Assembly: GCA_019084245.1 (NCBI GenBank)
Contig: JAHRFE010000007.1
Coordinates: forward strand, 124,001 to 188,000
DNA length: 64,000 bases
From: Hoeflea sp.
Lineage (GTDB): Bacteria; Pseudomonadota; Alphaproteobacteria; Rhizobiales; Rhizobiaceae
Direction of reading: 5' to 3'
The notes under the pieces: model-generated
Told to the model about the DNA's origin: nothing
What the model saw: only the letters and a program-made list of their open reading frames with translations
Database searches by the model: none
Position numbers and translations under genes: made by a program
In this document: positions 15,421-21,158 of the stretch, in pieces
Layout: each line of letters opens with the position of its first letter
How positions within the stretch are numbered: the first letter of the stretch is position 1

Positions 15421-15744
15421 GGCTTTGGGAACGGGTGATTGTGAACCATTCAGGGGTGGTTTCATCACCTTGCGGTCCTGTCGTGCAGGGCTTGGTTGCC
15501 AACGTTTGAATGCAACCGCCTGCGCGGTCACATCGTTGCAGAGGCAAGATTTGCAAGGAAGCCCTTTTCACGGGCCGTCAAATGCGCTCAGTTGCGGGCC
15601 TGTCAAACACCGTGCACAAGCGGATATCGTTTTTCCGTCCGGAATTGCACAAGTCCCATGACACAGATCATTTTCACGGCTCGGAAAAATGGGAAAATTC
15701 TTCATGTAGCCAAGGACTTGAGAACACTGGAAAGCAGATTGACC
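15421..15744. other. Leader of the P-type ATPase gene
   Basis: About 320 bp between a terminator and the ATPase start. The ATPase frame stays open back to 15496, with an alternative ATG at 15658, but the translation upstream of 15745 does not resemble the family. No other feature was recognised. Confidence 0.4.
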
Positions 15745-18432
15745 ATGGAACACTCTCACCACGCGATCGACACGGACGCGTCGCTCAAGGCCATGCAGGC
15801 GAGTGCCGGTGGCCTGAGCCAGGACGAGGTCGCGGCCCGCCGTGAAATCCATGGGCCGAACCGGTTGCCGCAGGCTCCCAAGCGAAGCGTGATCCTCCGG
15901 TTCCTCTCACATTTTCACAACATCCTGATCTATGTGCTGATCGGCTCGGCCGTCATGACGCTGTTCATGCAGCATTACGTCGATACGGCGGTCATTCTCG
16001 CTGTCGTGATCGCCAATGCGATTATCGGGTTCATTCAGGAGGGCAAGGCCGAGAAGGCGATGGATTCCATTCGCCAGATGCTCGCGCCACACGCGTCCGT
16101 GTTGCGCGATGGCGAGCGCCGCACTGTCGAAGGTGAGGATCTGGTTCCCGGCGACATCGTTCTGCTGGAGGCTGGCGACAAGGTGCCGGCCGATCTGCGG
16201 CTCATCCGCGTGCACGGATTGCAGGTCCAGGAAGCGATCCTGACGGGCGAATCCGTGCCGGTTGACAAATCCACCGGTCCCGTTGCCGCGGAGTCCGCAC
16301 TGGGCGACCGGTCCTGCATGGCGTTCAGCGGAACGCTGGTGACAGGCGGGCAAGGCCGCGGCCTTGTTGTCGCGACAGGCGCCAGCTCCGAGATCGGCCG
16401 CATCAGCGGACTGCTCTCGGAGGTGGAGACGCTGACAACGCCGCTTGTCCAGCAGATGGATGTTTTCGCCAGATGGCTGACATTGCTGATCCTCCTGGTC
16501 GCAGGCGCCTTGCTGGTCTACGCCTATTTCGTCGAGCATCAGGATTTCGCCGACATGTTCATGGCGGTTGTCGGCCTCTCGGTCGCCGCCATTCCCGAGG
16601 GGTTGCCGGCGGTGTTGACGATCACGCTTGCCGTCGGCGTGCAGGCCATGGCCAGGCGCAACACCATCGTGCGCAGGCTTCCCGCCATCGAGACGCTGGG
16701 CTCGGTGTCGGTGATCTGCACCGACAAGACCGGGACGCTCACACGCAACGAGATGATGGTCGCCTCGGTCGCCTTGCCCGGCCATGTGTATTCGCTTGAG
16801 GGAAACGGCTACGCACCCGAGGGCGCCATTCTGCTGGCGGACGCACCGGTCAAGGGTCACGACCATCACCAGCTCGTCGAACTGGCCGGCGCCGCCGCTG
16901 CCTGCAATGATTCCTCCCTGCACCGGCGGGAGGGCTTCTGGGCGGTCGAGGGCGATCCGATGGAGGGGGCCCTGCTGGCGCTCGCCGGCAAGGTGGGCAT
17001 CGACGTCCAGAATGGGTTTTCAGCCCGAAACCGCACCGATGCGATCGCGTTTGACGCCCGCCACCGCTTCATGGCGACCTTGCACCATGACCATCCCGAC
17101 CACGCGGATATTTTCGTCAAGGGCGCGCCGGAACGGGTGCTGGAGATGTGCGCGCAACAGCGCGGCGCGTCTTCGGACGAAACGCTCGACGAAACCTACT
17201 GGATTGAAACCTCGGAAAAACTGGCGGCTCAAGGGCAGCGGGTTCTCGCGATCGCGGCGCGCCGGGTCAGGCCCGAGCTGACATCGATCGGATTTGCCGA
17301 TGTGGAAGGCGGCCTGGTCCTGCTCGGCCTGGTGGGCCTGATGGATCCGCCTCGCCCTGAAGCGATCACAGCGGTGGCGGAGTGCCGTGACGCAGGGATC
17401 CGGGTCAAGATGATCACCGGCGATCATGCCGGAACCGCCGCCGCGATCGGCCGGATGATCGGCCTTCAAAACCCGGACCAGGTCCTGACCGGTGCCGCCA
17501 TCGACCAGATGGACGATGCCCATCTGGCGGCAGCGGTGCTCGACACCGACATCTTCGCCCGCACCAATCCCGAGCACAAGCTGCGCCTGGTGACAGCGCT
17601 TCAGGCCCAGGGACTGACGGTGGCAATGACCGGCGACGGGGTCAACGATGCTCCGGCTCTCAAGCGCGCGGACGCAGGCATCGCCATGGGGCTCAAGGGC
17701 AGCGAAGCCGCCAAGGAAGCAGCCGAACTGGTGCTGGCGGATGACAATTTCGCCTCCATCGTCGCCGCCGTCCGCGAGGGGCGAACGGTCTATGACAACA
17801 TCAAGAAGGTCATCAGCTGGACCTTGCCGACCAATGCCGGCGAGGCGATGACCATCATCGTCGCCCTGCTGTTCGGCATGGTGCTGCCGATCACGCCGGT
17901 GCAGATCCTGTGGATCAACCTGGTGACGGCGGTGACGCTGGGCCTGGCGCTGGCCTTCGAGCCGACCGAAGAAGATACCATGCGCCGCCCGCCGCGCCCG
18001 CGCCATGAGCCGATCCTGACCAGCCGTCTCGCCTGGCAGATTGTGCTGGTCTCGCTGCTGTTCTTTGCCGGCGTGTTCGGCGTCTATGCCTATGCGACCG
18101 ATCGCGGCTATTCGGTTGAGCTCGCCCGCACCATGGCGATGAACACGCTGGTGGTGATGGAGATCTTCTACCTGTTCTTCATCCGCAACATCTACGGCAC
18201 ATCGCTGACCTGGAAGGCTGCGCGCGCCACCCGCATTGTCTGGATCACGGTCATTGCCGTGACCGCGGCGCAATTCGCGGTCACCTACGCGCCGCCGCTG
18301 CAATATGTGTTTGGAACAGAGGCGGTTCCGCTGTTTGACGGCATGATCATTGTCGGCATCGGCGTGCTGCTGTTTGCGATAACCGAGGTCGAAAAGCAGG
18401 TGCGGTTGAGTATCGCGCGGCGCGCGGGCTGA
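15745..18432 (+). CDS. Cation-transporting P2-type ATPase
   Basis: 895 residues. It has the order of a P2 ATPase: an N-terminal cation ATPase domain (LSQDEVAARREIHGPNRLP), the actuator with LTGESVPVDK, IPEGLPAVLTITLAVG in the fourth membrane segment, the phosphorylation site CTDKTGTLTRNEM (Asp ~327), KGAPERVLEMC in the nucleotide domain, the hinge MTGDGVNDAPALKRADAGIAMG, and a six-helix C-terminal membrane domain. PEGLP points to the Ca2+/Na+,K+-type P2 branch rather than heavy-metal (CPx) or MgtA pumps; the ion is not settled. Starts at 15658 or further upstream are possible. Confidence 0.9.
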   Translation: MEHSHHAIDTDASLKAMQASAGGLSQDEVAARREIHGPNRLPQAPKRSVILRFLSHFHNILIYVLIGSAVMTLFMQHYVDTAVILAVVIANAIIGFIQEGKAEKAMDSIRQMLAPHASVLRDGERRTVEGEDLVPGDIVLLEAGDKVPADLRLIRVHGLQVQEAILTGESVPVDKSTGPVAAESALGDRSCMAFSGTLVTGGQGRGLVVATGASSEIGRISGLLSEVETLTTPLVQQMDVFARWLTLLILLVAGALLVYAYFVEHQDFADMFMAVVGLSVAAIPEGLPAVLTITLAVGVQAMARRNTIVRRLPAIETLGSVSVICTDKTGTLTRNEMMVASVALPGHVYSLEGNGYAPEGAILLADAPVKGHDHHQLVELAGAAAACNDSSLHRREGFWAVEGDPMEGALLALAGKVGIDVQNGFSARNRTDAIAFDARHRFMATLHHDHPDHADIFVKGAPERVLEMCAQQRGASSDETLDETYWIETSEKLAAQGQRVLAIAARRVRPELTSIGFADVEGGLVLLGLVGLMDPPRPEAITAVAECRDAGIRVKMITGDHAGTAAAIGRMIGLQNPDQVLTGAAIDQMDDAHLAAAVLDTDIFARTNPEHKLRLVTALQAQGLTVAMTGDGVNDAPALKRADAGIAMGLKGSEAAKEAAELVLADDNFASIVAAVREGRTVYDNIKKVISWTLPTNAGEAMTIIVALLFGMVLPITPVQILWINLVTAVTLGLALAFEPTEEDTMRRPPRPRHEPILTSRLAWQIVLVSLLFFAGVFGVYAYATDRGYSVELARTMAMNTLVVMEIFYLFFIRNIYGTSLTWKAARATRIVWITVIAVTAAQFAVTYAPPLQYVFGTEAVPLFDGMIIVGIGVLLFAITEVEKQVRLSIARRAG

Positions 18433-18608: not shown

Positions 18609-20348
18609 ATGCAGGACACGCTGAGACATTCGGATCGATTGTTGAACCTTCTCGACAAGGCCTATGACGCGCCTTTTCGTCCCGACAGCTTTCATGAACT
18701 CATGACCGCCGCGCATGATTTCTATTTCACCGAGCCTGATGATTTTTCCTCGCATGCGCTCAAGCAGGCCGACTACGAGAACAATGCCACCATTTTGAGC
18801 CATCTGAGCCGGATAGAGCGGCTGCTCAACGAGCGGGAACTGGAGAACCGTTCGCATCCCATCAATATCAGCAGCCCGGCGCTCAGCACCCTGCTGGTTG
18901 ATCCGGAAACCGGAATGGTGGAAGGAAACGCCCGGGCCAGTGAATTCTTCAAGCATGGCTTCCCGATCCACATCAAGCATCTCAATCTTAACGCGTCTTC
19001 CCGGAACCAGCTTCTGAAGATGGCGAAGGACGCCGTTGCAGCCGGCGAGTTTGACAGTGACATCTGTCTCATCAAGCGAAAGGACGATGCGGCGGCGCAT
19101 CTGGCCAAATGCGGCAGATGGGTCAGTTCCGAATACACCAGCGGCGCCAGAGCCCGCGGCCTGGCGGTGTCCATCGTGCATTTCGAATGGACCGCCGAGG
19201 CGCTTCAATTCTGCCAGTCGATGTTTGACCTGTCGGTGTCGGAAACCGAGGTCCTGGCGGCGCTGCTCAACGGGAAGTCACAGCCCGAGATCGCGGAAGC
19301 CCGGTTTCGCAGCGTCGAGACGATCAAGTCGCAATCCAAGGCGATCCTGCGCAAGTCGGGGTGCCGCAAGATCTCAGATCTGCTGGTGCTGGCCACAACC
19401 TATGGGTTGCTTGTCGACCCGGGAAGAACCCATTCGGGCATGTCAAGAACCGAGGTTCCGTTCTTCGCGCGACCTGACCGGATCTTCACCCGACCGGATG
19501 GCCGGAAGATCAGCTACGGCGTGTTTGGCGACCCGGCCGGCAAGCCGGTGCTTTTTGTTCATGGCATGGTTCAGGGACCGTTCTTTCCGGCTGACATGAT
19601 CGAGAACTTCAAGCGCGACGGCATCCGGATCATAGCCCCCTCACGGCCGAGCTTCGGACAGACCGATGCGCCGGAAAACTGGCACGAGTTCGATTCCGTC
19701 GTCATTGACGATATGATGCTGTTGCTGCCGGAGCTGGCCCGCGAGCCGGTGACCGTGATCGCGCACCAGGGCGGCGTCAGCCATGCCTGCCGGATCGCCC
19801 ATGCGCTCGGCACGCAGACCCGGAACATGGTGATGGTGAGCGCCGGAATTCCCATCGACGAGAAGAAGCATCTTCCGCACATGGGGGTGCAGACCCGGAT
19901 TGCCGCGCTGGGGGTCAAGTACACGCCCCGCATCCTGGAGACGATGATCCATATCGGAATCGTCAACTGGCTCCGCAAGGGTCTCAAGCCCTATGCCGAG
20001 CACCTGTTCTCGAACTCGCCCACGGATCTCGCCCATCTCGAGGACCCGCGCATCTACCCGATCTGCGAGGCGGGGATCCTGCACATGATCGAGCAGGGGG
20101 CGAAGGCCATCATCTATGACGGCAAGGCCGCCATGGCCGACTGGGAGAGCGATTTCCTGAAGCTCAAATGCCCGGTCAAGTGGCTGCACGGCACCAGGGA
20201 TCCGGTCATGCGCTATGACTTCGTGCAGGAATTTGTCGCGGCCCATGGCGGCGCGCCTGTCGAGCTGATCGAGAATGGCGGCAATACCATGCACCTGTCG
20301 CACAGCGATGTTTTCCATCGGGTCATCGCCGAGGCGGTTTCTGGCTGA
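18609..20348 (+). CDS. LuxR-type regulator fused to a nucleophile-less alpha/beta-hydrolase domain
   Basis: 579 residues in an unusual order. Residues ~1-200 include a PAS-like segment (LLVDPETGMVEGNARASEFF). Residues ~205-268 are a LuxR helix-turn-helix (DLSVSETEVLAALLNGKSQP, then EIAEARFRSVETIKSQSKAI). Residues ~295-579 are an alpha/beta hydrolase starting DGRKISYGVFGDPAGKPVLF. The nucleophile elbow reads AHQGGV, with Gln387 where the serine should be, while Asp531 (HGTRDP) and His562/565 are retained. So the hydrolase part is probably a ligand sensor, not an enzyme. The start at ATG 18609 fits the leading GGGG-rich site. It follows the ATPase gene by 176 bp. Confidence 0.85.
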   Translation: MQDTLRHSDRLLNLLDKAYDAPFRPDSFHELMTAAHDFYFTEPDDFSSHALKQADYENNATILSHLSRIERLLNERELENRSHPINISSPALSTLLVDPETGMVEGNARASEFFKHGFPIHIKHLNLNASSRNQLLKMAKDAVAAGEFDSDICLIKRKDDAAAHLAKCGRWVSSEYTSGARARGLAVSIVHFEWTAEALQFCQSMFDLSVSETEVLAALLNGKSQPEIAEARFRSVETIKSQSKAILRKSGCRKISDLLVLATTYGLLVDPGRTHSGMSRTEVPFFARPDRIFTRPDGRKISYGVFGDPAGKPVLFVHGMVQGPFFPADMIENFKRDGIRIIAPSRPSFGQTDAPENWHEFDSVVIDDMMLLLPELAREPVTVIAHQGGVSHACRIAHALGTQTRNMVMVSAGIPIDEKKHLPHMGVQTRIAALGVKYTPRILETMIHIGIVNWLRKGLKPYAEHLFSNSPTDLAHLEDPRIYPICEAGILHMIEQGAKAIIYDGKAAMADWESDFLKLKCPVKWLHGTRDPVMRYDFVQEFVAAHGGAPVELIENGGNTMHLSHSDVFHRVIAEAVSG

Positions 20349-20444: not shown

Positions 20445-21158
20445 TCAGCCGCCGCGGCGCCACATGGTCACCGGCGTTCCATCGGCCAGCGCGCCGGAGA
20501 AATAGTTGATGCCGTCGCGCTTCAGTTCGGCCACGGGCTGACCATTGCCGCTTTCGATGGCCAGCACTGCGTCATAGCCGGTGAAACTGTATCCCAGGGC
20601 AAATCTTCCGGCATTGGCGAGATACGGATTGGTGCAGGAGATGTTGTTCATGTTGCCGCCCTTGGCGTCTTTCAGCTTGTAGCCGCTGGTGGTGCCAAAA
20701 CCTCGGGCGATGACGCCAGCGCCGGTCCGGATCTGAAGCTCGCAGCCGCAGTTCGACGATCCGTCGGTCATCATCCACTTGCCGCCAAGGTCCTGCTCGG
20801 TGCGGACCACCTGGCTTGCGACCGTTGCGCCAATGACGCCGCCGCCGATCACGTTGCCCAGAACATTGCGCCCGACATTGCGAACAAGATTCTTGCCGAC
20901 CGCGTTCTTGGCGAAATCGGCGCCCTTGGCCGGCTTCGGCGGCGGCCCGCCGGCGAGCGTCATGGCGCAAACGCCCGGATTGGCTTGCGTGGCCGCGAAG
21001 GCGGTGACGGTGGGCGTCGCCGTATCTACCGTTTCTGCTGCGGCGGTTTGCGTCGCTTCACTTGTGCCGGGGGCTTCGGTCTTCGCCGTCTGGGAAGGCG
21101 TCTGGCAGGCCGCAATCAGGGTGAGGGCCCCCATCAGGCCGATGGTCTTGAGTTTCAT
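20445..21158 (-). CDS. Outer-membrane lipoprotein with AprI/Inh-type protease-inhibitor domain
   Basis: 237 residues. The lipobox LIAAC sits near residue 18, so it is lipidated, followed by a Thr/Ala-rich linker. A glycine-rich segment (NVLGNVIGGGVIGATVASQV) resembles glycine-zipper membrane segments. The C-terminal ~100 residues (DLGGKWMMTDGSSNCGCELQ ... FSGALADGTPVTMWR) fit the small beta-barrel of AprI/Inh inhibitors, as in Brucella Omp19. The start at the complement of 21156-21158 has GGGGACAAG upstream. Inhibitor activity is inference from domain shape. Confidence 0.75.
   Translation of the reverse strand: MKLKTIGLMGALTLIAACQTPSQTAKTEAPGTSEATQTAAAETVDTATPTVTAFAATQANPGVCAMTLAGGPPPKPAKGADFAKNAVGKNLVRNVGRNVLGNVIGGGVIGATVASQVVRTEQDLGGKWMMTDGSSNCGCELQIRTGAGVIARGFGTTSGYKLKDAKGGNMNNISCTNPYLANAGRFALGYSFTGYDAVLAIESGNGQPVAELKRDGINYFSGALADGTPVTMWRRGG

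Follow-up and report, generated by a model that had tools for sequence, protein, structure and literature searches.

P0001, a predicted regulator of 579 residues from Hoeflea sp., combines a PAS-like N-terminus, a LuxR-type helix-turn-helix (HTH) and a C-terminal alpha/beta-hydrolase domain in a single chain. As judged by alignment, this domain is without two of its three catalytic residues, the nucleophile and the histidine, and keeps only Asp531. On balance, P0001 can be regarded as a one-component regulator that would sense a small molecule through a catalytically dead hydrolase.

The gene lies at 18609..20348 (+ strand) of the window, which is the whole stretch of 64,000 nucleotides analyzed here, in a host genome of 4.82 Mb (G000:C16). 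The reading frame proposed by the first-pass annotation was confirmed: it holds no internal stops and its ATG at 18609 is also used by the orthologues L003–L006. A longer TTG-initiated frame from 18438 is taken to be an overextension. At this locus, three Hoeflea records (L003–L005) are the closest relatives with a name, at 91, 87, and 81% identity. A phage origin was considered and rejected, as the search of phage records returned no match. All NCBIfam matches of P0001 fall far under the curated cut-offs.

Domain architecture and catalytic residues

The PAS-like region comprises approximately residues 86–200 (18864..19208, +). Its assignment, as made from the sequence of the window, is tentative and comes from the family rather than from P0001 on its own: a Pfam scan of the P0001 N-terminus gave no match, whereas a profile built from 34 family N-termini found the FixL PAS domain as its top solved match (E 3.7e-4), and four of these 34 N-termini match PAS_8 in Pfam. 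The HTH follows at residues 207–266 (19227..19406, +). In P0001, the GerE match (208–262, E 1.4e-4) reaches 21.9 bits, just under the cut-off of 23.5, and GerE is matched by 18 of the 21 family members scanned (E 0.01). The region can be aligned across the 63 rows of the family alignment and shows a dN/dS of only 0.01–0.12 (0.01–0.11 between P0001 and L003–L006). The LuxR assignment therefore stands, and the region is a real and strongly conserved HTH. Unlike the quorum-sensing LuxR receptors, which hold an autoinducer-binding domain, the P0001 family shows none among the 17 Pfam families matched by 21 members, P0001 included.

Regulators of the LuxR/GerE type share the GerE HTH with P0001, but they usually carry it at the C-terminus, while in P0001 it ends at residue 266 of 579 and is followed by the hydrolase. 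Because relatives that terminate soon after the HTH exist, the best reading of this arrangement is that a hydrolase was appended to an ordinary PAS-LuxR regulator. The earlier description of the HTH as central is thus correct as to its position and incomplete as a reading. L085 and L086 match only the N-terminus and the HTH, ending shortly after the latter, and L151, L156, and L175 have a related gene of 381–405 codons immediately downstream of the fusion, for which Pfam finds PAS plus GerE in L151 and one weak match each in L156 and L175. The hydrolase-free proteins of L085, L086, and L151 share the family N-terminal profile and, as PAS-LuxR one-component regulators, the same HTH; unlike P0001, such regulators have a C-terminal HTH and no hydrolase. 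At L219 (1164–2018 and 2005–3201, −), a Ser-Asp-His hydrolase frame and a PAS-LuxR-type frame are neighbors with a slight overlap; here the fusion may exist as two genes, or it may have broken apart.

After a short linker (residues 269–290, 19413..19478, +), the hydrolase domain occupies residues 291–579 (19479..20345, +). Its proposed fold is borne out by a match to Abhydrolase_6 at 314–570 (E 3.5e-11; 44.6 bits against a cut-off of 26.3), and the family hydrolase profile matches solved hydrolases with a best E of 2.6e-36. In the pairwise alignment with the arylesterase 3t4u, Gln387 (19767..19769, +), in the elbow AHQGG (385–389), pairs with the Ser of GFSMGG, and Asn559 (20283..20285, +) pairs with the His of DAPH. 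Both residues occupy the nucleophile and His columns in the family alignments too, and when the family profile is compared with 1va4, the elbow, acid, and 'GQL' columns fall on Ser94, Asp222, and His251, presumably the catalytic residues of that enzyme. Asp531 (20199..20201, +) stands at the catalytic-acid position, where Asp is found in 58 of the 63 alignment rows and 101 of the 120 fusion rows. Two of the three first-pass statements on the triad, the replacement of Ser by Gln387 and the retention of Asp531, agree with these alignments; the third, the retention of His562/565, does not, since Gln387 and Asn559 stand in the catalytic columns. P0001 thus differs from active Ser-His-Asp hydrolases, which hold the full triad. 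It also differs from the esterase 9wlv and the arylesterase 1va4, among the closest solved relatives of its hydrolase domain, which are single-domain proteins that have no HTH and whose aligned columns hold Ser and His. Two AlphaFold2 predictions, each with the window protein and L003–L005 as input, reached a mean pLDDT of 39.6 for the full length and 38.6 for the hydrolase domain, values too low for the models to show a pocket.

As indicated by codon comparisons of P0001 with L003–L006, purifying selection is strongest on the HTH and, within the hydrolase, acts mostly on the lid, the region between the fold halves (residues 424–507, 19878..20129, +). The hydrolase has a dN/dS of 0.10–0.16, and so the domain is not a decaying remnant; the linker evolves fast (0.37–0.77). 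The lid has the lowest dN/dS of the hydrolase in four of the five usable comparisons, the last third being lower against L003; L007 is saturated at synonymous sites. Lid identity exceeds core identity in 22 of 23 pairs from the clade of P0001, in 95 of 149 other fusion pairs, and in 1 of 18 hydrolase-only pairs, with core identities restricted to 0.40–0.93, and these counts are descriptions rather than tests because the pairs overlap. Seven pairs of fusions with an intact triad show no lid excess.

Triad loss in the P0001 clade and across the family

A quick tree was built with the triad columns masked from 120 rows (112 fusions and eight hydrolase-only relatives), thinned from 128 at 90% identity, with L008 left out and with SH-aLRT support and no bootstrap. 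The tree places P0001 in a 10-row clade (SH-aLRT 99) whose rows all have Gln at position 387. This rises to 13 of 13 once the near-duplicates L003 and L072 and the truncated L008 are added, the last being assigned by similarity alone (36% identity) and being without the acid and His regions. Outside this Gln clade, Gln occurs at the nucleophile column in L136 and in L210, a cut fusion. Within the clade, the acid is Asp except in four sequences with Cys, and Asn, Gly, Ala, Thr, or Ser stands at the His position. Across 12 clade rows, the invariant polar residues include His318, Arg346, Gln387, His392, Arg395, and Arg430, as well as Asp473, His492, Gln496, Asp504, and Asp511. An invariant Gln387 next to a drifting His and acid would be the pattern expected if Gln387 has a function and catalysis has none.

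Close homologues with Ser at position 387 had been named as a finding that would refute the idea of a recruited hydrolase; the six examined (L003–L008) all carry Gln and do not refute it. An isolated mutation in P0001 was rejected, as Gln is common to the whole clade and triad losses recur across the family.

Matches to P0001 (E 1e-10 or better) are present in 45 of the 297 genomes of its taxonomic family, its own included. A 21-row profile at 1e-30 found matches in 24 of 385 genomes sampled from the class and 46 of 398 sampled from the phylum, two sets that overlap and whose matches include some hydrolase-only and N-terminal-only ones. The fetched loci with both HTH and hydrolase gave 120 fusion rows, which correspond to 119 genes because L066b repeats L089 in a cut form; left aside were the partial L076, L127, and L131, four rows with an N-terminus alone, and a shortened copy of the L066 gene. 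Among the 120 rows, the nucleophile column holds Ser in 34, Ala in 15, Gln in 14, Met in 11, Gly in 11, Leu in 10, Asp in 9, and other residues in 16. The His column holds Gln in 47, His in 31, Asn in 10, and others in 32. An intact Ser-Asp-His triad is found in 13 rows, and 20 combine a Ser, Cys, or Asp nucleophile with His (the 13 intact ones, six Asp with His, and one Cys with His).

All 13 hydrolase-only relatives (nine plus L212, L214, L215, and L219) have Ser-Asp-His. Two further sequences were set aside as probable fusion pieces and would make this 13 of 15 if counted: L211 (Gly-Asp-His), because its N-terminal half lies in an overlapping frame broken inside the HTH, and L213 (Ser-Asp-Phe), because it is cut by the contig end. 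The contrast between fusions and hydrolase-only relatives is not phylogenetically independent, since the latter are few and come mostly from one part of the tree; one intact fusion, L074, sits among them. As a same-genome control, 18 other Abhydrolase_1 frames were aligned in the same way: 16 have Ser, Cys, or Asp at the nucleophile column, 16 have His, 14 have both, and 11 have strict Ser-Asp-His. The misses are L200 and L202 at the nucleophile column and L207 and L209 at the His column. For L202 and L207, a shift of the alignment by one column seems the likely cause; alignment scores are low (0.8–4.6) for L200, L208, and L209. A nineteenth Abhydrolase_1 frame, with Leu-Asp-Gln, belongs to the family itself and is its second member in this genome (G000:C17).

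On the tree, parsimony puts the minimum number of changes at 16 for the Ser site, 11 for the His site, and eight for the switch between intact and lost, with no direction given. Judging by their nucleophile and His residues, as many as 20 of the 120 fusion rows could have kept enzymatic activity, so the role of the family need not be pure sensing. Members with an Asp nucleophile and His (L047, L069, L070, L071, L073, L101, and L147) share these features with dehalogenases or epoxide hydrolases and could be active enzymes.

Genetic neighborhoods

Upstream of P0001 lies a cation P-type ATPase gene (15496–18432), shared only with L003 and L004 among the loci compared, and downstream lie a convergent lipoprotein-like gene, an AI-2E family transporter gene, and an ABC permease gene. 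The convergent gene (20445..21158, −) encodes a putative lipoprotein of 237 residues with an Inh-like C-terminus (E 0.0022, below the cut-off), and its link to the regulator is uncertain. It adjoins the regulator in the window, L003, L004, L005, and G109, as well as in G258 by coordinates. It is found in 26 of the 297 genomes, only three of which (G000, G258, and G109) have a Gln-clade regulator; the 26 do not include G066, from which the truncated L008 comes. Since the gene also occurs in genomes without the regulator, it is not called a target. The neighbors inspected agree with the view that adjacent genes in the window reveal neither ligand nor target; no clue to the ligand was found in the neighboring genes of the compared loci, and no clear conserved operator was found by eye in the DNA upstream of six orthologues.

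Beside the regulator at four loci of the Gln clade's sister half (L141 and L142, 8707–9141; L143 and L144, 6512–6946), there is a small convergent lipoprotein-like gene of another kind, encoding 145 residues, and the two copies scanned gave no Pfam match. The Gln-clade regulators of L139 (7001–8722) and L140 (751–2436) lie immediately downstream of what we take to be a tuf-like gene, near genes presumed to encode ribosomal proteins.

Elsewhere in the family, the second triad-less fusion of the P0001 genome (L146, 8041–9927, C17) adjoins genes that we take to be zapA-, transketolase-, and gapdh-like, an arrangement found in seven loci. A VWA-domain gene lies at most three genes from the fusion in four loci (L147, 3263–4696; L149, 3186–5201; L150, 245–3214; L182, 7950–10487), on plasmids of Ruegeria, Pseudosulfitobacter, and Agrobacterium, where it is divergent, and in one other genome. 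Pfam identifies the VWA domain in the genes on the three plasmids, and BLAST groups the fourth gene with them.

Proposed mechanism and relation to known systems

In the mechanism proposed here, a PAS-LuxR regulator would carry a dead alpha/beta-hydrolase at its C-terminus as the sensor. A small molecule or, less likely, a protein partner would sit in the old active-site pocket beneath the conserved lid, and Gln387 and other invariant polar residues would help to hold the ligand. Its binding would alter the packing of the hydrolase on the PAS-HTH part, or dimerization, and in this way DNA binding. We infer that ordinary hydrolysis is absent in P0001, that its pocket binds a ligand, and that this binding controls the HTH. 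The pseudo-hydrolase idea of the first-pass annotation comes out stronger, because the His is lost too and such losses are recurrent in the family, although its detail of a retained His does not hold and its parallel with D14/KAI2 is the poorer one.

The same observations bear on other readings. The dead hydrolase might instead be a protein–protein interaction or dimerization module whose lid is packed against the PAS-HTH part or a partner protein. The conservation of the lid suits an interface as well as a pocket, and RsbQ, also an alpha/beta-hydrolase, is reported to contact a PAS domain (PMC3183031). A surface interface, however, would not need the invariance of Gln387 and of several of its sequence neighbors at the former active site, which from the fold would be expected to line the pocket, and the module reading is considered rather unlikely.

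Residual chemistry appears less probable still: P0001 would keep an unusual catalysis through another residue (e.g., His392, His562, or His565) or without a nucleophile. His392 is invariant across the 12 Gln-clade rows, and an Asp nucleophile with His, as in dehalogenases, occurs in other clades (six of 120 rows, and also the Ruegeria plasmid member); against this, within the Gln clade the His position varies freely and four sequences have Cys as the acid, a combination that, to our knowledge, fits no known alpha/beta-hydrolase chemistry. The absence of triad residues would also be expected from isolated decay, that is, a functionless, recently inactivated enzyme domain or a sequence artefact, but the loss is clade-wide and recurrent in the family and the hydrolase dN/dS stays at 0.10–0.16, so this explanation is highly improbable. 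A pseudogene was rejected on the same grounds.

Returning to the sensor reading, plants have made hormone receptors from hydrolases, some of them with catalysis lost. D14 and KAI2 are hydrolase-fold small-molecule receptors that keep Ser-His-Asp, while the gibberellin receptor GID1 keeps the Ser, has lost the His, and acts through DELLA proteins. Of the plant parallels drawn by the first-pass annotation, GID1 is accordingly better than D14 and KAI2, whose triads are intact. GID1 is a hydrolase fold turned receptor with a lost triad residue, much as proposed for P0001; unlike P0001, it is not fused to a DNA-binding domain. P0001 would best be read as a parallel of GID1 and, in concept, of the RsbQ-PAS module. 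In that module, known from RsbQ/RsbP of Bacillus subtilis and homologues, a hydrolase and a PAS domain can make one sensor, the RsbQ triad is required, and the hydrolase is a separate protein, in contrast to the single fused chain of P0001 (PMC3183031). The reported outputs are a phosphatase, a histidine kinase, and a diguanylate cyclase, with LuxR not mentioned in that text (PMC3183031). RsbQ is reported to depend on an intact triad, whereas the P0001 family has a LuxR HTH as its output and has usually lost the triad.

Weak matches to enzyme profiles, namely 3-oxoadipate enol-lactonase in 14 of 21 members and macrolide esterase in six of 21, make lactone-like ligands a reasonable first guess for the fusion family. 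A literature search found no description of a PAS-LuxR-hydrolase fusion family, subscription journals being mostly outside its coverage. Hydrolase-fold receptors and one-component regulators are already known; their combination with a recurrent loss of the triad appears to be undescribed. Such a family is easily missed under generic database labels: in 35 records, plasmid-borne members are named 'alpha/beta (fold) hydrolase', 'LuxR C-terminal-related transcriptional regulator', or 'hypothetical protein', and one is unannotated.

Beyond P0001, it is tentatively proposed, with slightly less than even confidence, that Alphaproteobacteria and other proteobacteria hold a large family of one-component regulators with dead-hydrolase sensors, which arose by repeated loss of catalysis after the hydrolase joined a PAS-LuxR protein. 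As part of this family-wide reading, and just as tentatively, the dead-hydrolase regulators could be the bacterial counterparts of the plant hydrolase-fold hormone receptors. The family spans, within one architecture, stages from intact Ser-Asp-His fusions to proteins with no triad, with the transcriptional read-out built in. If the reading is true, the step from enzyme to receptor would be directly testable, and a set of new bacterial signals would be opened.
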